DNA of 8,856 nt from a bacterium (GTDB taxonomy: Bacteria; UBP4; UBA4092; JAOAEQ01): NCBI GenBank assembly GCA_026416715.1, contig JAOAEQ010000016.1, forward strand, positions 1 through 8,856, given 5' to 3'. Below the pieces are notes generated by a model that searched no databases, was not told where the DNA came from, and was given only the letters and a program-made list of their open reading frames with translations. Of this stretch, positions 107 through 8,856 are shown in pieces. The translations under genes were made by a program, and so were the position numbers. How positions within the stretch are numbered: the first letter of the stretch is position 1; the number at the start of each line of letters is the position of its first letter.

Positions 107-2275
107 TTATTGGTGTCTATCCCAATTTTCTACGGTTGCAGGAACTAGATAATCCACAACTACCCCGTTAATCAACAGTTTACTTCCTTGCATCGTTTTA
201 GTTCCATTAGCGGGAGCAAGAACTAGCACAACTGCAGAATCCGCAGGAATCGAAAAATAGGTCACCCCGGTTACATTCTGCCGTAAAAAAGTATTCGATA
301 CACAATCCCATAAATCTTTCGGCGAAGTTCCAACATCAATCTGAACCGACGTAGCGGTACTGAATGGGTTGTAGTATAAATATGTCGGATAGGCGGAATC
401 GTGATAATAATCAGTTTTTAAACAATCTAACTGTAAAATATATTGATTATTCGTTGTTGAAATTATTCCACCAAATATCCCAACATGAGCGGAACCATAA
501 AGCCCGAAATCAGTCTTAACTCCGTATGGGTATCCGGAAATACCATCTCCCATACTATACGGACTTACACTCAATTCTGACATAACAAAAATCGCATCTA
601 TATACAGTGTATCTAACATAGTGTTTCCGCCCGTGCGATTATTATCCTGTACTCGAATATAAATCCTTCCGCTAAGATTGGATGGTAGGCTATTCCAACG
701 TAATTGACTCGGTGAACTGTTACTGATGGTAAATAAAGTAATAAATGGTCCTGCTGTAGATGTCGAATAAGAAAACACAAAACCGGAATCACTATCGCCC
801 CCATCACTATAATATGCATTTACAAGGATGGTATGCGAGGTTCCAACAGGTAACGTCATATCCCAGATATGTTCTAATTGATCATTACTACCTACCACTG
901 CTTCTTTCAAAACTTCATATTGGTTATCCGTTTGATATTGTTGTGTATTGATATAGTTTCCAGATTCAATCGTTCCATACCGATGTAAATAATCTGAATC
1001 TACTAAAACCTGTTTCCGACCATATTTTCGAAACCCTTCATATCCTATACAATAGTTAGGATCGTACACATCCGCCCACGCTTTGGAAGACTGATGTGCT
1101 GAATCTAATGAATTTGCATAAAAGAACCGAGAGGCATTTGCCGCATTCAACATCCATTTTCCGATAGCCCGCGCATAGCGATCATCATAGCGAACAATCG
1201 GAACCAGTGCACCTGCCATATGATAAGTATTCATCGCAAAACCATATCCTCCTCCATCAGTATTTCCTCCTATCAATCCATGAACGTCATATCCAGCCCA
1301 AGTATCTGCAATGACGCCAAAATACGGTCGAGCATCGCTTGAATAGCATAAACACCAATTAAGGAATTTTTCAAGATTATAATTCCGACCTAACTCTGCA
1401 TTCATTCTAGCAGCTAAATAAGCACCATAAGGGAGCAAACATTCATAGAACGGATTAGTTATTCTATTGTGTAAAAATTGCATACCCCAATCTGCAGTGG
1501 TTAATCCGGTATATAACGTCTTACCGCTTTTTACGTAGGCCATATAGCCAAGCCAAGCAATTCCCGCTGCTGCATCTGGCTCTTTCCATAACCCATTATC
1601 TACCGGGGTCAACGTTGAAAACCGAAATGCAGTATGGTCGTAATTCGGAATACCGGAGTTTCCTCCCATAAAATAACTCGCAAGATACCAGCGATTCGCA
1701 ATCGTATAAAACATATTATCAGTTGTTCCTAAACTTGGATAATAATAGGCTAATTGATAAAACAAAATATTGGGAAAAATCTCGTACCAAAAAGATTGTC
1801 CGGTAGTGGTATTACTTCGATTTAAAACTAGATTTTCGCCATTATCTTTATTAAAATAATTTTCTTGCATGATTACCCAGTTCATTCCATTTTGGTTACT
1901 CTTGTCAATTCCGATGAGAGTCGCACCTAATACAGCTCCCATACAATTAATTGATTCATGATTATTCCTAGTTGTCCACGAAGCTGGCCAACCAACATAC
2001 GACGGCTGGCCAAATACTACCCGTTTATAATTCGTCGAAGTCCTATCCCACCAAATTAAGGGGAGATACTGACCAGTAGTATTAAAATTAAATACAAACG
2101 CATCATAATCAAGGGCAACTTGTTTCCAATTCCGCATCTGAAACGGCTGCGGTATATTTGGCATCAACTCGACCCGCGGTAAAGTAATTTGAGCGGTATA
2201 ACTCCAAACTACTAACACTATGAAAAATAAAACTCCTATGAAACTAATCCTTCGAATTTTAATTAAATTGTGCAT
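107..2275 (-). CDS. Membrane-anchored or secreted (alpha/alpha)-toroid-like protein with inserted beta-sandwich module
   Basis: This 722-residue protein starts with a basic stretch and one hydrophobic segment (about residues 11-26), read as a signal anchor or uncleaved signal peptide, so most of it should lie outside the membrane. Residues about 45-425 are rich in aromatics and helix-like, with repeated W/Y/G-rich turns (WKEPDAAAGIAWLGYMAY at 230-247, DTWAGYDVHG at 324-333, NTDGGGYGFAMNT at 338-350, then RYDDRYARAIGKWMLNAANA). This resembles the (alpha/alpha)-barrel of six-hairpin glycosidases and polysaccharide lyases. Residues about 431-566 look like an inserted beta-sandwich (LEHIWDMTLPVG, GRIYIRVQDNNRTGGNTMLD), and 567-711 form a beta-rich C-terminal domain. 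A strong ribosome site, AAAGGAGA, lies 5 nt before the ATG and supports this start. The same architecture occurs in uncharacterised bacterial proteins; no catalytic residues can be assigned, so enzymatic activity is inference. A decayed paralogue lies immediately upstream. Confidence 0.72.
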   Translation of the reverse strand: MHNLIKIRRISFIGVLFFIVLVVWSYTAQITLPRVELMPNIPQPFQMRNWKQVALDYDAFVFNFNTTGQYLPLIWWDRTSTNYKRVVFGQPSYVGWPASWTTRNNHESINCMGAVLGATLIGIDKSNQNGMNWVIMQENYFNKDNGENLVLNRSNTTTGQSFWYEIFPNILFYQLAYYYPSLGTTDNMFYTIANRWYLASYFMGGNSGIPNYDHTAFRFSTLTPVDNGLWKEPDAAAGIAWLGYMAYVKSGKTLYTGLTTADWGMQFLHNRITNPFYECLLPYGAYLAARMNAELGRNYNLEKFLNWCLCYSSDARPYFGVIADTWAGYDVHGLIGGNTDGGGYGFAMNTYHMAGALVPIVRYDDRYARAIGKWMLNAANASRFFYANSLDSAHQSSKAWADVYDPNYCIGYEGFRKYGRKQVLVDSDYLHRYGTIESGNYINTQQYQTDNQYEVLKEAVVGSNDQLEHIWDMTLPVGTSHTILVNAYYSDGGDSDSGFVFSYSTSTAGPFITLFTISNSSPSQLRWNSLPSNLSGRIYIRVQDNNRTGGNTMLDTLYIDAIFVMSELSVSPYSMGDGISGYPYGVKTDFGLYGSAHVGIFGGIISTTNNQYILQLDCLKTDYYHDSAYPTYLYYNPFSTATSVQIDVGTSPKDLWDCVSNTFLRQNVTGVTYFSIPADSAVVLVLAPANGTKTMQGSKLLINGVVVDYLVPATVENWDRHQ

Positions 2276-2369: not shown

Positions 2370-2687
2370 TTAAAATTCACTATTTGTTATCGCAAACGCA
2401 CTTAATTCTGCAGGCACTCGGCTGAAATGTTAGTAAACAACACTGTCAATAAAGAATTTCGTACTATTCTCAATTTCTTAGTTCCACTTGCCAAAGTGAT
2501 AACTGCAACTACTGCAGAATCAACGTGAATCACAAAACTAGTGGTACCTTTTACATTTGTTTTTAACAATCAACTATTACACAAAATAATTTAATGTTCT
2601 CTGTCCCAATCTTGTATCTTGTATTTGATAATAAAAACTCGGAATATTCGGCATTAACTCAATTTGTGGAATATTAACCTGCGTAGT
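2370..2687 (-). pseudogene. Relic of a paralogue of the 722-residue toroid-like gene, most of the middle deleted
   Basis: Two separated pieces of the neighbouring 107-2275 gene can be read here in the same order. At 2687-2631 the minus strand encodes TTQVNIPQIELMPNIPSFY, matching residues 27-44 of the neighbour (TAQITLPRVELMPNIPQPF). A degraded continuation to about 2575 resembles its NWKQVALDYDAFV segment after a frameshift and ends in a stop. At 2569-2477 the frame encodes LLKTNVKGTTSF then VIHVDSAVVAVITLASGTK, matching about 663-693 (FLRQNVTGVTYF, SIPADSAVVLVLAPANGTK). After another frameshift comes FIDSVVY, matching LINGVVVDY, then a stop and a tail VPAELSAFAI ending at the stop at 2370-2372. 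Roughly 600 codons between the two pieces are missing, and the start codon is gone. It explains most of an otherwise gene-free 598-nt gap. Confidence 0.85.
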
Positions 2688-2746
2688 ATCGTTGGTGATA
2701 CAATTATGAAGACCAAAACAAATTTTATGATTTAGTGATAGTTAAT

Positions 2747-2774
2747 ATACTATATAATTTGAATGTTCATTCAA
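2747..2774 (-). promoter_or_regulatory. Weak promoter-like site over a palindrome, upstream of the pseudogene
   Basis: On the minus strand TTGAAT (2774-2769) is followed after 16 nt by TAGTAT (2752-2747), a mediocre sigma-70-like pair. The -35 part falls inside an inverted repeat with 7-nt arms and a 2-nt centre (2759-2774). This would be the right place for the old promoter and operator of the decayed paralogue. The DNA is very AT-rich, so chance matches are likely. Confidence 0.22.
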
Positions 2775-2796
2775 TGCTAATCTCTTATTTCGCTCT

Positions 2797-2843
2797 GATA
2801 GAAAAAGGGTGGTAGTGAACTAAATTATTTTCCATTACCACCC
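2797..2843 (-). terminator. Rho-independent terminator of the beta-helix gene
   Basis: The minus-strand transcript reads GGGTGGTA (2843-2836), a roughly 20-nt interior with further partial pairing, then TACCACCC (2814-2807), followed directly by TTTTT and C (2806-2801). A GC-rich stem with a U tract 30 nt after the stop codon of the beta-helix gene is a classic intrinsic terminator. Its stem resembles the terminator after the LamG gene. Confidence 0.85.
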
Positions 2844-2873
2844 AAAATTTTCTCATATTCGAACTTTAACTTC

Positions 2874-4697
2874 TTATTCAAATTCAAACCTTATCCATTC
2901 TGCTATAGGAACTCCAGTTGCTGGAAACGCGGTTTGCTCTTCATAAGCGCCAATATCCGGAGATGTCCCTATTGGCCGGGGACGCGGATTTCCGTCAAAA
3001 TCATTAGGTATTCCTAAATTAATCCCTCTATACAATGCAGGTGAATTCGTCTGAAGATGGAAATCACCTGTTCCAGGACCACTAGAAGCCCCTACAAATT
3101 TCGGGTCTCCCGGATAATATGATATACTCCCAATATTAATAGCGCTACCAGTATAAATGGTATCAATGTTGTATAGCAGATTCGCAATCCCACTGATATT
3201 CACCGATGAATTGTTATAAGTTTGAAATGCGACCGAAGCACCGGAAAATATACAGTTATTAATAATCACATCGCCGCCGGTTCGAATCCATTCACTATGC
3301 ACTGCATTTCTGGTATTTTTAGTAGTTGTCACAAAATCGCAATGGTATGCTCTGACATTTGCCCCTTCAATCCATAACTGATCTTGACCTTCGTCAAAAA
3401 TACAATTGATAATGGTGGTTTCAGACCAACTCCGCATTCGAGCTAACGCTCTTGCATTTCCTGAACCATCAACGAATTTTGACCGTTCAATATACACAAC
3501 ACTATACCCACTATCCACATTATTAGTGTTCAAATAAATCTGGTACGAGGGGAAAGACTGACATTTATTCATAATAAATTCGCATTGTGAAAAATAGGTA
3601 TTGCAATTTCCTTCCATATCCCAGGTAACAAAACCGCTATCCCGATTTTCATTAAATTTACACCGTATCGCAGTCACTGCAGATAAATAATACTGACCGC
3701 CTACACCAAATCCGCTGATTGTGTTCCTAGAGAATTCCGAATCCGCAAAGTAGAAAGAACATGGGGTATTGTCTCCTGCAGGAACATATGCATAATAGAA
3801 TCCGTATTCTCGATTATAATTAACGATGCAAGAAGTTAACGATATTGTTATCCCCGGTCCCATACATAAAATACCTAATCTACCATTATTTAGTATCGAA
3901 TTGGTCACAGTGATTACCGAACCCTTAGCATTATTCGCAGCATCATTGCCTGCTCGGATATTATCCCAATAATTGCCCGAAATCGTTGAATGAGATACGG
4001 TTACATTTGCCTGTTTCAACAACCAAATTCCAACTTGACCTTCATTCATAATCATACTGTTGGTTATGGTGATATTAGAGCCATCTAAGGTTTGCGCTAC
4101 TACTCCAACCTGATTATTGGTAGATAAACAATACTGCATGGTTAACGTCCCTCCGCCGCCAATCACAATTCCTCTTACTGCGTTATTAATTATAGTTGAA
4201 TTACTAATTGTCATTGCACCGGAACCATTAAAATTTATCGCTCCAGGATTATTACTATTAATCAGAGATCTAGTTATTGTTACAGTAGCTGCACCAGGAA
4301 TATTCAGTCCCCAACCCAATGTCTTATTAGAAAAAGTACATCCTTGGATTGTTACATTCGCACTACTATAGATTGAAATTCCCTGACCAGAAACACCGCT
4401 AAACAAAAGATTCTGCAAAGTAACGGTTGGAGTATCTAAAATATTACACTGATTTACTATGGATACCCCAGAAACAGTTCCCTGAATCGATAGATTCTTA
4501 TTAATATCCATCGTCGTGCTATTGCAATAATTTCCTGCTACTGTAATTTGAATGGTATCTCCAGAAATAGCAGCAGTAATCGCATCCGGAATATCCGAAT
4601 AGGGCACAGGTACAGTCAAAATCGCACCTGTACTTAAAGAAGTTAGAAAAATAACCTTAAAGCATATTATTGCCCACAATATATTAATTTGTCTCAT
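2874..4697 (-). CDS. Secreted right-handed parallel beta-helix protein with choice-of-anchor Q-like C-terminus
   Basis: A hydrophobic signal peptide (ending near LSTGA) is followed by ILTVPVPYSDIPDAITAA, a typical opening of pectate-lyase-like beta-helices in which a set of events is unpacked from P-x-x-I-x-x-A-I. A long series of coils of about 22-26 residues follows, with repeated V-T-I-x-N/G-S/C-x-(I/F)-x-N-N patterns, as in PbH1 repeats. The last ~75 residues (GDFHLQTNSPALYRGINLG, then DFDGNPRPRPIGTSPDIGAYE) match the choice-of-anchor Q domain seen at the ends of many exported beta-helix proteins, and the protein finishes VPIAEWIRFEFE. Such helices bind or cleave polysaccharides or serve as adhesins; no lyase active-site residues are evident, so activity is unassigned. 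An upstream ATG at 4703 is only 2 nt from the G-run of the ribosome site, whereas the ATG at 4697 is 8 nt away, so the latter is chosen (607 residues). It sits in its own unit between two terminators. Confidence 0.85.
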   Translation of the reverse strand: MRQINILWAIICFKVIFLTSLSTGAILTVPVPYSDIPDAITAAISGDTIQITVAGNYCNSTTMDINKNLSIQGTVSGVSIVNQCNILDTPTVTLQNLLFSGVSGQGISIYSSANVTIQGCTFSNKTLGWGLNIPGAATVTITRSLINSNNPGAINFNGSGAMTISNSTIINNAVRGIVIGGGGTLTMQYCLSTNNQVGVVAQTLDGSNITITNSMIMNEGQVGIWLLKQANVTVSHSTISGNYWDNIRAGNDAANNAKGSVITVTNSILNNGRLGILCMGPGITISLTSCIVNYNREYGFYYAYVPAGDNTPCSFYFADSEFSRNTISGFGVGGQYYLSAVTAIRCKFNENRDSGFVTWDMEGNCNTYFSQCEFIMNKCQSFPSYQIYLNTNNVDSGYSVVYIERSKFVDGSGNARALARMRSWSETTIINCIFDEGQDQLWIEGANVRAYHCDFVTTTKNTRNAVHSEWIRTGGDVIINNCIFSGASVAFQTYNNSSVNISGIANLLYNIDTIYTGSAINIGSISYYPGDPKFVGASSGPGTGDFHLQTNSPALYRGINLGIPNDFDGNPRPRPIGTSPDIGAYEEQTAFPATGVPIAEWIRFEFE

Positions 4698-4705
4698 ACA
4701 CATTT

Positions 4706-4713
4706 CCCCCTTT
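4706..4713 (-). promoter_or_regulatory. Ribosome binding site AAAGGGGG that decides the beta-helix start
   Basis: The G-run ends 2 nt before the first ATG (4703) and 8 nt before the second (4697). Normal spacing favours the second. The LamG gene (AAAGGGGGG, 6 nt from its ATG at 5650) and the first pilin (AAGGGGG, about 6 nt from its ATG at 7934) use the same G-run form in place of GGAGG. Confidence 0.7.
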
Positions 4714-4748
4714 CATTTTGAAAAAAATAGTTTAGGTTCAAATAATAG

Positions 4749-4776
4749 ATAATAATTAATAATGTGAGGATTCCAA
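4749..4776 (-). promoter_or_regulatory. Candidate sigma-70-type promoter of the beta-helix gene
   Basis: On the minus strand TTGGAA (4776-4771) is followed after 16 nt by TATTAT (4754-4749), 4 of 6 and 5 of 6 matches to the consensus boxes. Transcription would start near 4742, about 40 nt before the start codon and just past the LamG terminator. The region is AT-rich, so this is only a candidate. Confidence 0.4.
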
Positions 4777-4777
4777 T

Positions 4778-4817
4778 GTAAGAAGAAACACGGTGGTGAA
4801 TAACTATTCACCACCGT
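4778..4817 (-). terminator. Hairpin terminator after the LamG gene
   Basis: A perfect inverted repeat, CGGTGGTGAA (4791-4800) and TTCACCACCG (4807-4816), extends by an outer A-T pair and by inner pairs. On the minus strand it is followed by the U-rich tail TGTTTCTTCTTAC. It lies about 40 nt past the LamG stop and separates that gene from the beta-helix gene. A smaller hairpin, TATTCAG-GTAG-CTGAATA at 4833-4850, sits between the stop and this stem. Confidence 0.75.
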
Positions 4818-4855
4818 ATAGCCTTTCCAACATATTCAGGTAGCTGAATACTGGT

Positions 4856-5650
4856 TTATTCCGCTTCAAAATTAACCAATTCTACGGGAACGAATTCAGT
4901 CCGTTCAATATTTGAAAACCGCAGTTCATCAACTCGTCCCCGTAAAGGCATTAAATTCGATGTGGGTGGACCACCTGGAACCCAAACTCGACCTAACACA
5001 GCAGCAGTGAATGATAGATGTTGATATTCACTCGTTACCGGAGTTCCACCTTGAATTGTCGGAACACGTACCCCATCTACATAGAATTTTACTTTATCAG
5101 CAGTATCAGTTGCAGCTGAATTATACACAATTGCGTAATGGTGCCAGCTATCATACATCTTTGGAACAACACAGTATGCCCATTGATTCGCTGAACCATC
5201 GTACACATTTAACTGCATATAATTATTGATATCGCTCCCAGCATTTCGTAACTGATAAATAGCTCGACCTGCAGCTAAATCCAGCATACAGTTAGTAAAT
5301 TCTACACCACTATCTGATGCATATAGGTAATACCACGCTTCAACGGTATGCGGAGTTGGAATAGTACTAATTGAACCAGGATTAACTTCACACCCGTTAA
5401 TATTTCCACCCGCTCCAGATAAACATTGCCCCCATCCTGCTTGTGATGCAACAAATGTTGGATTAGCGTAACCAGCTATTGTCGACATACTCACGGTATA
5501 AGTTGTATCCCCACTATTTGTTAGGTTACCATCTAAATGCAAAAGTAAAACGGTATTTGCATCTTTAATATATGGACCGGGTGGTGGACCAGCAATTGCT
5601 ATCGTAGCTAATACTGCTGTAATCAAACTTGTAATGACTACTTTGTTCAT
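4856..5650 (-). CDS. Secreted LamG (concanavalin A-like) domain protein
   Basis: This 264-residue protein has a clear Sec signal peptide (MNKVVITSLITAVLATIAIA, cleavage likely before GPPPG). Residues about 31-251 form one LamG/pentraxin-like jelly roll: VLLLHLDGNLTNSG opens the domain, HTVEAWYYLY, SWHHYAIVYNS and KVKFYVDGV are the central strands, and GRVDELRFSNIER closes it. Such domains bind glycans or protein partners and are not usually enzymes. Nothing follows the domain but a short tail ending FVPVELVNFEAE. The ATG follows AAAGGGGGG at good spacing. The gene lies 83 nt after the last pilin and is followed by a hairpin terminator; whether it is co-transcribed with the pilins is unclear because only a weak hairpin separates them. 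A surface or matrix lectin is the likeliest role; the ligand is unknown. Confidence 0.85.
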   Translation of the reverse strand: MNKVVITSLITAVLATIAIAGPPPGPYIKDANTVLLLHLDGNLTNSGDTTYTVSMSTIAGYANPTFVASQAGWGQCLSGAGGNINGCEVNPGSISTIPTPHTVEAWYYLYASDSGVEFTNCMLDLAAGRAIYQLRNAGSDINNYMQLNVYDGSANQWAYCVVPKMYDSWHHYAIVYNSAATDTADKVKFYVDGVRVPTIQGGTPVTSEYQHLSFTAAVLGRVWVPGGPPTSNLMPLRGRVDELRFSNIERTEFVPVELVNFEAE

Positions 5651-5706: not shown

Positions 5707-5738
5707 ACAAAAAATAACATAATAACATGATCATTATG
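5707..5738 (-). terminator. Weak AT-rich hairpin at the end of the pilin cluster
   Basis: CATAAT (5718-5723) pairs with ATTATG (5733-5738), overlapping the stop codon of the last pilin. On the minus strand it is followed by TTATTTTTTG. The stem is short and AT-only, so termination here would be partial at best, with read-through into the LamG gene possible. Confidence 0.3.
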
Positions 5739-6291
5739 AGCCATATCCAGTTCCTAATTGTTTAAGATTACCAGGAACAAGACGAAATATTCTTCCCTTG
5801 CTAATAATTCCATTTGATGGGTCGTATTCGATACCATCGGTTTCAGCCCAATATTGTGATGCGGCAGCATAATCTCCTAGGGTTGGTCCCCATGGACCCC
5901 AACTAATTACTGCACCCCATCTTCCAGAATAGATACCTTGCCAAGTATCCTCTCGTTTGACCCAAATATATATCGGTTTCAAAGTATAGGGGTCAATATA
6001 AAACCGTTCATTACCGAAAATATCGTTTGGTAAAGAACTCATATATGATATCGGAGTAGTAAGATCTCTCAAACGATGACTATACGGATAATCGTTATAA
6101 TCGACAAAATATGATTCTAAAGAGTTTATCAATTCACGTTCTTCCTTATTGCAACGAGATACCTTCGACCGGGTTTGTGCAGCTAAAAAGTTTGGAATTG
6201 CTATTGCAGCTAATATCGCTATAATCGCTACCACTATTAATAGTTCAAGCAAAGTAAATCCCTTATTTCCACCCAAATAATCTTTCTTCAT
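5734..6291 (-). CDS. Type IV pilin-like / GspG-like pseudopilin, third intact copy
   Basis: A class III prepilin of 185 residues: leader MKKDYLGGNKG, then FTLLELLIVVAIIAILAAIA with the expected E5 after the G/F cleavage site, to be cut and N-methylated by a prepilin peptidase and assembled into a fibre or pseudopilus. After NFLAAQTRSKVSR comes the alpha-1 helix, LTTPISYMSSLPNDIFG (about 77-93) and the C-terminal EYDPSNGIISKGRIFR. The cluster motif S-x-G-P-D-x-x-x-D, with an acidic pair, is changed to SWGPWGPTLGD, and a basic/acidic block (CNKEERE) replaces the usual KADMRS, so it has diverged from its sisters. It extends past the family end with LVPGNLKQLGTGYGS. The start is 18 nt after the upstream pilin stop with a poor ribosome site, suggesting translational coupling. 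The nearby pseudogene is closest to this copy. Confidence 0.88.
   Translation of the reverse strand: MKKDYLGGNKGFTLLELLIVVAIIAILAAIAIPNFLAAQTRSKVSRCNKEERELINSLESYFVDYNDYPYSHRLRDLTTPISYMSSLPNDIFGNERFYIDPYTLKPIYIWVKREDTWQGIYSGRWGAVISWGPWGPTLGDYAAASQYWAETDGIEYDPSNGIISKGRIFRLVPGNLKQLGTGYGS
6164..6210. repeat. 47-bp exact repeat shared by two pilin genes, copy 1
   Basis: This segment is identical to 6755-6801. It encodes the end of the transmembrane helix and the NFLAAQTRSKVSR segment. The intact pilin at 7359-7934 encodes nearly the same residues with many silent differences, so identity here exceeds what protein conservation demands. Confidence 0.9.
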
Positions 6292-6309: not shown

Positions 6310-6882
6310 TTATGGTCCCCAGCGACTTATATCACCTCGGCTAATGGTTCCATTAGTCGGGTCGTATTGTTTAGTTACTGGATACCAATCAGCGCCATCA
6401 TAAATCCTATCCGGTCCAATCGAATGTATACACCAATCCTGTGAAATACCTTCGTATACCCAAACATTATAATTATATACTGCGGTGCCGAAGGTCATAT
6501 CCCAGTTTTTATAATGGAAATATTGATATATATCAGGCACATTCGGATAAGGAAAAGTATCTTTGGGAACTGAAGCTAGATATGCTACCGGAGTAGTCAA
6601 CGGTACATAATTTTGAATATGGGTACCTCCGGTCCATAAAGGTGAAAAATATGCTTGTCGAGTATACGTATCCGGTGGATACATATTATTATCAACATCA
6701 TACGATTCTAATGCAATCGCTAAACTGCGCATATCTGCTTTGACTCGCGATACTTTCGACCGGGTTTGTGCAGCTAAAAAGTTTGGAATTGCTATTGCAG
6801 CAAGAATCGCAATAATGGCGACAACGATTAATAATTCAATTAAAGTAAATCCAAAGTTGAGTTTCAATATATCTTTTTTCAT
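6310..6882 (-). CDS. Type IV pilin-like / GspG-like pseudopilin, second intact copy
   Basis: A 190-residue prepilin: leader MKKDILKLNFG, cleavage before FTLIELLIVVAIIAILAAIA with E5 present, then NFLAAQTRSKVSRVKADMRS and an amphipathic helix (LAIALESYDVDNNMYPPD). The globular part has LTTPVAYLASVPKDTF (about 95-110), the motif HSIGPDRIYDGAD (about 153-165), which corresponds to the S-x-G-P-D-x-x-x-D region of GspG-like pseudopilins, and the ending YDPTNGTISRGDISRWGP. AAGGGA lies about 8 nt before the ATG. Predicted role: major or minor subunit of a type IV pilus or type II secretion pseudopilus anchored in the inner membrane; the sequence cannot tell which. It follows the pilin pseudogene and precedes another pilin by 18 nt. 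Confidence 0.9.
   Translation of the reverse strand: MKKDILKLNFGFTLIELLIVVAIIAILAAIAIPNFLAAQTRSKVSRVKADMRSLAIALESYDVDNNMYPPDTYTRQAYFSPLWTGGTHIQNYVPLTTPVAYLASVPKDTFPYPNVPDIYQYFHYKNWDMTFGTAVYNYNVWVYEGISQDWCIHSIGPDRIYDGADWYPVTKQYDPTNGTISRGDISRWGP
6755..6801. repeat. 47-bp exact repeat shared by two pilin genes, copy 2
   Basis: Identical to 6164-6210, with both flanking bases different. It is the equivalent codon stretch of the neighbouring pilin, consistent with recent gene conversion or a young duplication. Confidence 0.9.
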
Positions 6883-6907: not shown

Positions 6908-7336
6908 TCATTGAGGTAATGTATCTTCCAATTTCAACCCGCCAGGAACAAACCGTTGAATTCTGCCCGGACCCATGATTCCATTAGTTAGGTCATATTC
7001 CATATTTCCAATATTGCGAACTAGAACTAGGAAAATTCGGACAAATATAAACACTGCTATTCCCAAAAAAATCGTTTGACAAAAATGTTAGGTATGCAAT
7101 CGGTGTTGTTAAACGAGTTAGTCCTATCTGAAACCACGTACCACACCATGTTTCTGGATAGACATTATTATCAGTATTATAATATATGCTTTTCTAACGC
7201 AGTTATTTGCAATTGTAACTCTGCTTGGGCTCATAATACTTTCTTTTGTTCGGGTCTGCGCAGTCAAAAAATTTGGAATCGCTATGATTGCGACTACAAT
7301 TAACAATTCGATTAAAATGAATCCTTTCTTAAGCAT
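6908..7336 (-). pseudogene. Decayed pilin paralogue with frameshifts and deletions
   Basis: The copy starts MLKKGFILIELLIVV and keeps E5, but the T of FTL is I and six residues of the membrane helix (ILAAIA of the intact copies) are deleted. After TAQTRTKES the reading frame breaks. A second frame holds AQAELQLQITALEKH after an in-frame stop, equivalent to KADMRSLAIALES. A third holds YYNTDNNVYPETW and then LTRLTTPIAYLTFLSNDFFG. A final frame holds MEYDLTNGIMGPGRIQRFVP and ends at the stop at 6908-6910. About 40-50 codons between FYIDP-like and SQYW-like segments are also missing. The C-terminal extension and NDxFGN motif make the gene at 5734-6291 its closest relative. The 70-codon open frame at its start is not a gene in its own right. 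Confidence 0.9.
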
Positions 7337-7358: not shown

Positions 7359-7934
7359 TTATGGACCCACTCTAAAAATATTACCTGGGCTTACCGTTCC
7401 ATTGGTTGGATCATATAGCAAATACGGTGCTGGTGGCCAACCGGTATCTATCCACATATTATCCGGTCCAGGACTATATATACTCCAAACCACATTCGGT
7501 CCCGCTTCTGGAATAAAGTACATGATATTTTCTTTTTGTCGGTCATAACAAAATGTTCCTAACATATATTCACGGGGAAAATTATGCGTATACCACGGAT
7601 TATCTGTTAAATGTTTCCCAACTTGAAATGGGTCACTTGGTAAACTGGTAATATATGCTATCGGAGTGGTAATCTTGTTGGTTAGTTTTCGGCAATAATC
7701 TCCGTTATACGGCCAAGTCCAAACTCCAGCATTTGGACCATCCCAAGGATACATCGTATTATCGACATGATACGACTCAAGCGCAGTAGCAACAGAGGTC
7801 ATATCTGACTTCACCCGAGATACTTTGCTCCGTACCTGTGCCATGAGAAAGTTTGGGATTGCAATTGCAGCTAATATTGCTATAATTGCAACTACAATGA
7901 GTAGTTCAATTAAAGTAAATCCGCTTTTAAACAT
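7359..7934 (-). CDS. Type IV pilin-like / GspG-like pseudopilin, first copy in the cluster
   Basis: A 191-residue prepilin with a very short leader, MFKSG, cleaved before FTLIELLIVVAIIAILAAIA (E5 present), then NFLMAQVRSKVSRVKSDM. The head has a helix ending ALESYHVDNTMYPWD, ITTPIAYITSLPSDPF (about 88-103), YSPGPDNMWIDTG (about 153-165, the GspG-type S-x-G-P-D region) and the ending YDPTNGTVSPGNIFRVGP. Two cysteines (in DYCRK and TFCYD) could form a disulfide, which its sisters lack. AAGGGGG sits about 6 nt before the ATG, a strong site, so this may be the best-translated copy and the head of a pilin transcript; no convincing promoter was found in the 117 nt upstream. Predicted to be a fibre subunit of a type IV pilus or pseudopilus. 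Confidence 0.9.
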   Translation of the reverse strand: MFKSGFTLIELLIVVAIIAILAAIAIPNFLMAQVRSKVSRVKSDMTSVATALESYHVDNTMYPWDGPNAGVWTWPYNGDYCRKLTNKITTPIAYITSLPSDPFQVGKHLTDNPWYTHNFPREYMLGTFCYDRQKENIMYFIPEAGPNVVWSIYSPGPDNMWIDTGWPPAPYLLYDPTNGTVSPGNIFRVGP

Positions 7935-8051: not shown

Positions 8052-8837
8052 TTATTCATACAATTCCCAATGTATCGCGAAGGTTGGTTCCATAGTTGAA
8101 TCGTGAACTAGCTGAATATCGCGCGAATTCATATCCGCACCGGTTGGTGGTGTATATTGGGAGCCACCGATAAATGTCTGCTTGGTATAATTGTCATCAA
8201 TCAGCAATGGTTCGCAGCCAAATTTAAATCCTATTGATATCGCGGAAAGTAAGTTTCCACCAGGTTGACGAGCAGTATCAACACTGGAAACGATATCTGA
8301 CCAGGATAACCGCGCTTCAATAACTCGGTTATGTGATGTAAAACTTCCGCCAGTTGCTACGGTTCCATTTGCAAACGGTGCAAGCACTAACCCCGCATCA
8401 TTATTAACTCGTGCAATATACAAATCATTTCGACCTAATGAACTGAATCCAAACCACGGATTGAAATCACCAATACTTGGCGAGGTTCGATTATCATTAT
8501 TATTATCCAAATCTATCCAGAACGAAATGCCATCAAACGCCCATGGTGCAGCGGAATATAGTGACCCATTTGCCGCTTCATTTTGTGTCGTATCACCAGC
8601 AGTCTCTTGCACAAGGATATAGAGATAGCTGGCATCCCAAGCGAACTTTACATCACACGCCAACTTACCGCCGGTAGTAGATGCGCTGAAATCACAGTGG
8701 ATTGCGATACTGGTGGTTGACGACCAGTCACTCGGATTCCCATCAATGGTTAATGTAGTACATCGCGAAGCAGGGATAACCAACGCTGATGAAGGAAATC
8801 CTGCAGGATACCGTTTCCCTTTTGAAAACCGCAGTTC
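8052..8837 (-). CDS. C-terminal part of a secreted protein: end of LamG domain plus CBM9/DOMON-like domain
   Basis: The frame is open to the contig end, so the N-terminus is missing. The five-codon start MYKRQ that a gene finder reports comes from the adapter and is not biological. The first real residues, ELRFSKGKRYPAGF, are the closing strand of a LamG domain; the DNA of ELRFS (17 bp) is identical to the same motif in the LamG gene at 4911-4927. From about residue 30 comes a CBM9/DOMON-like beta-sandwich: LTIDGNPSDWSS, then VKFAWDASYLYILVQ, FDGISFWIDLDNNND, RVIEARLSWSDI, GFKFGCEPLLID and NSRDIQLVHD. Domains of this fold bind sugars or haem; no haem ligands are evident, so carbohydrate binding is likelier. 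It ends FAIHWELYE, aromatic and acidic like its secreted neighbours. The full protein is probably a multidomain exported lectin or enzyme whose catalytic part is off the contig. Confidence 0.82.
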   Translation of the reverse strand, partial: ELRFSKGKRYPAGFPSSALVIPASRCTTLTIDGNPSDWSSTTSIAIHCDFSASTTGGKLACDVKFAWDASYLYILVQETAGDTTQNEAANGSLYSAAPWAFDGISFWIDLDNNNDNRTSPSIGDFNPWFGFSSLGRNDLYIARVNNDAGLVLAPFANGTVATGGSFTSHNRVIEARLSWSDIVSSVDTARQPGGNLLSAISIGFKFGCEPLLIDDNYTKQTFIGGSQYTPPTGADMNSRDIQLVHDSTMEPTFAIHWELYE

Positions 8838-8856
8838 CTGTCTCTTATACACATCT
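8838..8856. other. Tn5/Nextera mosaic-end adapter at the contig edge
   Basis: The last 19 bases, CTGTCTCTTATACACATCT, are exactly the reverse complement of the Tn5 mosaic end used in transposase-based library preparation. It sits at the very end with no flanking sequence and no transposase gene, which fits untrimmed library adapter rather than a genomic Tn5 element. Confidence 0.96.

Follow-up and report, generated by a model that had tools for sequence, protein, structure and literature searches.

A short C-terminal tail with the consensus V-P-V-E-L-S-x-F-x-(A/V/I)-x is shared by unrelated exported proteins encoded in an 8856-base stretch of bacterial DNA (the window, which is the entire contig C16 of a 2.96-Mb genome, G000) and elsewhere in the same genome. 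The tail is best read as the first strand (strand A) of a fibronectin type III-like (fn3-like) domain, cut from the rest of that domain, and its carriers stop after strand A. The remainder of the domain stands alone on other exported proteins, here called acceptors. On this basis, the probable role of the tail is that of a docking tag, which would tie its carriers (the cargo) to the cell envelope via strand complementation of an acceptor.

In the window's genome, a degenerate DNA pattern picked out about 18 tail genes. A profile built from 16 tails (A1) gave 17 matches at E ≤ 0.01 (best E 9.6e-7), all of them 3 to 27 residues from a stop codon. As judged by a simple hydrophobicity rule and inspection, 16 of the 17 clear carriers had a Sec-type N-terminus, while the remaining carrier was a fragment of 102 codons. 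Exported-like proteins made up 26–34% of those in a 380-kb sample of this genome; at the sample rate, we estimate that 16 exported carriers out of 16 would arise by chance with a probability on the order of 1e-8. An earlier note on the window, made from its sequence alone, had called for a test of whether the tail is enriched on exported proteins, and these counts show that it is. When protein ends in the same sample were scored for resemblance to the tail, 8 bits or more was reached by 1/104 exported and 0/203 other proteins; because the sample was sited away from known strong tail loci, these figures measure background and not tail frequency. The sole classmate genome examined (G001) contained 21 tails, and profile A1 at E ≤ 0.01 had no match in 39 genomes outside the class.

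In the classmate genome, four tandem paralogues (L108, 7313–13246) have tails of the VPVELSRFYFE type. In G000, three of four adjacent paralogous exported proteins (L128, 2649–10316) end in xRFELxD or a close relative of it, which may be another short C-terminal pattern; as a variant of the tail these ends were rejected, since they score under the tail threshold.

Tails were also found in another phylum. A pattern scan for VPVELSRFE over 84,980 species genomes returned one named tail protein, from a Candidatus Sumerlaeia metagenome-assembled genome (L088), that ends in ISVPVELSRFEWD followed by the stop, and a Saprospiraceae protein in which further sequence follows the string. Approximately 20 tails were counted in the Sumerlaeia genome G041 and 10, 7, 5, and 4 in four further Sumerlaeota. 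The stop came exactly 3 residues after the F in all 15 G041 tails read and in all tails read from the other Sumerlaeota. The window's genome is related to a Sumerlaeota genome at the “same domain” level only. When whole tail proteins were aligned, conservation was confined to the tail, and 48 carriers from which the signal peptide and tail had been removed fell into 26 unrelated BLASTP groups. Passenger domains include LamG, beta-helix, golvesin, LTD, M1, M6 and papain peptidases, S1-P1 nuclease, EEP, amidase, and deacetylase.

In the Saprospiraceae protein (Bacteroidota), the string LVPVELSRFEAEA leads into the domain LLSWTTESEVNNSGFDIERS, such that VPVELSRFEAE is followed by an fn3-like domain. 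An AlphaFold2 model of this domain alone is a beta sandwich (mean predicted local distance difference test score, pLDDT, 85.9; predicted template modelling score 0.78) whose first strand spans residues 5–13, ELSRFEAEA. Most of the matches that Foldseek returned for the model were fibronectin type III domains, with a best E of 1.4e-3, and the strand order fits. The Pfam fn3 profile (PF00041) matched the intact domain with E 6e-4 and 20.3 bits, which is under the 25-bit cut-off, and aligned residue 9 with profile position 8. A sequence search of solved structures gave weak matches (best E 0.075), the second of which was to an fn3 domain, with the tail at the place of strand A. Similarly, a Hymenobacter LamG protein has SNFSLWTLGNSANPLPVQLVAFTAQ and then continues into the domain, while proteins of G000 have TSFSDWTLSGPGGVPVELSRFEVEVIKP and stop. 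The homology extends to the preceding FSDWTLSG-like segment. It is the first strand of the model, the Foldseek matches and the Pfam alignment, although below cut-off, that point to strand A as the best assignment of the tail.

With the intact domain as query, each of six tail genomes yielded one or two small proteins that are exported, most often as lipoproteins, and the alignments mostly began after strand A, at query residue 13–17. These acceptors begin with a signal peptide or a lipobox, continue into a linker of low complexity, and then have the domain from strand B; in the window's genome, for example, the acceptor (C6:26406–26933, 175 aa) contains GVITLRWRTESEQDNYGFNVYRAESKDGPFEKINPTIIRGHGTTSEPHDYVYVD. 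An export signal was present in all 25 acceptors examined, and a lipobox in at least 17. The strand-A score ahead of the domain was 9.9–33.7 bits in 11 of 12 intact proteins and 0.0 in the twelfth, as compared to −0.4 or less in all stand-alone acceptors. None of the tail proteins contained the acceptor domain, and no convincing tail was found on the acceptors. No family in Pfam or NCBIfam claims the acceptors tested. As far as sequence can show, then, the acceptor is an incomplete immunoglobulin (Ig)-like fold without strand A, and the tail is homologous to the missing strand. In genome G049, one acceptor gene lies immediately after a tail gene. A covalent isopeptide bond of the SpyTag type was considered and rejected, as an alignment of seven acceptors has no invariant lysine.

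Some acceptor loci have features of their own. In G013 and its relatives (L201), the acceptor domain is fused behind tetratricopeptide-like repeats and a conserved LxxLVPDDSPGR segment, not a plain linker. In G000, a dense run of pseudopilin-like genes (L120, 4291–13473) lies close to the acceptor gene.

We propose that the cargo would cross the inner membrane by Sec, bearing only strand A at its C-terminus. An exported acceptor, in most cases lipidated at the N-terminus and equipped with a flexible linker, would present the fn3-like domain starting at strand B, and the cargo tail would dock as its missing edge strand (donor-strand complementation). The lipid or other anchor of the acceptor would hold the pair on the envelope, and unrelated enzymes and binding proteins could in this way share one receptor. 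Binding of the two halves, the side of the membrane on which the pair would act, and retention as its purpose are parts of the proposal that we infer. The earlier note had set an export, anchoring or processing signal against the truncated opening of a beta domain. What we observed favors anchoring and the truncated opening together, not as alternatives, because a truncated strand can itself serve as an anchoring tag when a second exported protein, usually lipid-anchored, holds the remainder of the domain. We also lean, by a little, toward the broader suggestion that a natural split fn3-like tag and catcher provides general non-covalent anchoring in Sumerlaeota and in the small phylum of the window's genome, possibly replacing anchoring by the type IX secretion system (T9SS) or exosortase.

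Co-occurrence of tails and acceptors was scored over 79 genomes. Every genome with at least two tails had a stand-alone acceptor, although that of G043 scored weakly owing to an insertion. The association gave Fisher p = 2e-4 over all genomes and 0.05 within Sumerlaeota, but these values are inflated, since tail-positive genomes were the source of the acceptor profile. Along with this inflation, several other points weigh against a docking tag. About 18 Sumerlaeota have an acceptor but no detected VPVEL tail, and G052 has one tail while its acceptor was not detected. The acceptor of G000 is without a lipobox and is secreted. That P, E, and F hardly vary among the collected tails is in part a selection effect of the collection itself, and the G000 tails, reaching up to 27 residues past the F, are looser than those of Sumerlaeota. 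If tails dock on acceptors, acceptor-positive and tail-negative genomes should carry diverged tails. We sampled two acceptor-positive genomes scored as tail-negative or nearly so, and both had a few: LPVTLSRFAAD, VPVTLSAFSIE, and TPVQISRIEFD in G013, and LLPVELDLYGVE and LGVTLSGFAVH in G062, each followed directly by the stop. In the acceptor-negative G045, there were no tails among 41 exported proteins sampled.

Another possibility is that the tail is a sorting signal for some other outer-membrane export or processing machine, with the stand-alone fn3-like protein either a part of that machine or unrelated to it. This is consistent with a C-terminal position at a fixed distance from the stop on exported carriers, with passenger families that elsewhere bear T9SS, PEP-CTERM or GlyGly signals, and with the pseudopilin cluster near the G000 acceptor. 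However, the machines of this kind that we looked for were mostly missing. The T9SS C-terminal sorting domain (TIGR04183) had 0 matches in G000 and G001 while controls were positive, and the SprA/Sov translocon was absent from G000, G001, G041, G049, G050, and G057 while it was full-length in the Saprospiraceae control G042. T9SS was rejected on the absence of the sorting domain from G000 and G001 and of SprA from the six tail genomes tested. The exosortase EpsH family (PF09721) was absent from five of the six tail genomes, including the window's own, and present only in G050. In addition, no hydrophobic helix or basic cluster follows the motif before the tails end, 3–27 residues after the F. 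Processing of the sortase or PEP-CTERM kind was rejected on these grounds, and the sortase-like gene that the earlier note had suggested looking for was not supported. A sorting signal would also leave unexplained why the counterpart of the tail within the domain stands alone in these genomes, and we regard it as unlikely.

It could also be speculated that the tail is an evolutionary scar of lost T9SS-type proteins, the first strand being what was left over from an fn3-like and a sorting domain. The strand-A homology is clear, also in the segment that precedes it, and no T9SS parts were found; however, decay would be expected to leave random lengths and sequences, yet the strand residues are conserved in two phyla, the Sumerlaeota tails keep their exact spacing to the stop, and unrelated passengers have the same tail. 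A scar is therefore improbable. Less probable still is that the tail, as a structural cap or linker, completes the last domain of the passenger itself. The tail resembles a beta strand and beta-rich passengers are numerous, but the same tail occurs on all 26 passenger groups, among which are enzymes with different folds. An AlphaFold2 model of the LamG cargo alone had a pLDDT of 34, which is too low to judge the tail as a domain cap. The most likely explanation remains a docking tag that would complete the acceptor.

The genes of interest in the window are all on the minus strand (Table 1). The earlier note had listed five proteins as bearing the tail. The LamG protein and the relic do so, and the beta-helix protein does so once one inserted residue is dropped; the end of the CBM9-like protein (FAIHWELYE), offered as a looser match, and LVPATVENW of the 722-residue protein are not tails by a position-specific score (in bits) built from 55 tails. 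The end of the 722-residue protein occupies the same position as the canonical tail of its relic paralogue, a decayed gene at 2370–2760 that retains RVPAELSAFAITNSEF followed by the stop in one frame (2370–2420, minus strand). In the beta-helix protein, a choice-of-anchor Q domain (NF041518, residues 539–589) directly precedes the tail, and this is the position where other bacteria place sorting signals.

Table 1. Tails, carriers and related proteins in the window.
Feature	Position	Strand	Evidence
LamG protein tail FVPVELVNFEAE, proposed docking strand	4859..4894	-	profile E 4e-4 genome-wide; 26.6 bits
LamG (Laminin_G_3) protein, 264 aa, proposed cargo	4856..5650	-	PF13385 E 2e-10; Sec-type N-terminus (signal peptide)
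Beta-helix protein tail VPIAEWIRFEFE, one inserted residue	2877..2912	-	2.1 bits ungapped; 18.9 bits after dropping the residue
Right-handed beta-helix protein, proposed cargo	2874..4703	-	PF13229 E 2e-25
Canonical tail VPAELSAFAITNSEF of the relic, a decayed gene paralogous to the 722-aa protein	2373..2417	-	frame translation; 18.6 bits; stop at 2370-2372
722-aa exported protein, end LVPATVENWDRHQ not scoring as a tail	107..2275	-	-2.8 bits
CBM9-like protein cut off at its N-terminus by the contig end; last residues AIHWELYE not a tail	8052..8855	-	PF06452; -7.4 bits

The contig terminates at 8838–8856 in CTGTCTCTTATACACATCT, which we take to be the Nextera transposase end sequence. The first residues of the CBM9-like open reading frame, DVYKRQ, would therefore be adapter, and the true N-terminus is missing. 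A type IV pilin-like gene that is now broken has left remnants (6908–7336) amid intact pilin-like genes (5734–6291, 6310–6882, and 7359–7934).

In the open-access papers searched, we found no description of a VPVELSRF, PVELS or LPVEL tail, or of donor-strand complementation as a general cargo tag, and the Sumerlaeota genome paper has no mention of “C-terminal”, “lipoprotein” or “extracellular”. If correct, our proposal would explain how some uncultivated bacteria without T9SS, and mostly without exosortase, could hold many hydrolases and binding proteins on the cell envelope. The 12-residue tail would allow the cargo to be listed from sequence, the acceptors would name a receptor family that is not described in Pfam or NCBIfam, and the two parts may supply a natural peptide-tag and catcher pair for biotechnology.

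The proposed system resembles several known ones in part. Like the T9SS C-terminal sorting domain, the tail marks the C-terminus of many exported proteins that are otherwise unrelated, and in at least one G042 protein an intact fn3-like domain with strand A precedes TIGR04183; the tag described here, however, is about 12 residues long as compared to a sorting domain of 70–80 residues. PEP-CTERM/exosortase and sortase systems likewise use a short C-terminal signal, and their passenger families overlap with those found here (choice-of-anchor Q, ScyF-like), but the tail has no transmembrane helix or basic end. Cohesin-dockerin and SpyTag/SpyCatcher offer parallels in that one receptor serves many tagged cargos and a beta domain is split with a peptide as one half. 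Dockerin, on the other hand, is a folded domain, and SpyTag is engineered and covalent. Donor-strand exchange is established in pili, where FimA-type pilins take the C-terminal strand of a neighbor (PMC5954841). As in the chaperone-usher pili and the FimA/Mfa1 fimbriae of Bacteroidales, an incomplete Ig-like fold would be completed by the strand of another polypeptide. In contrast to pili, in which the partners are fimbrial subunits that polymerize, the strand described here is common to many unrelated cargos, and each acceptor is a small envelope protein that stands alone.

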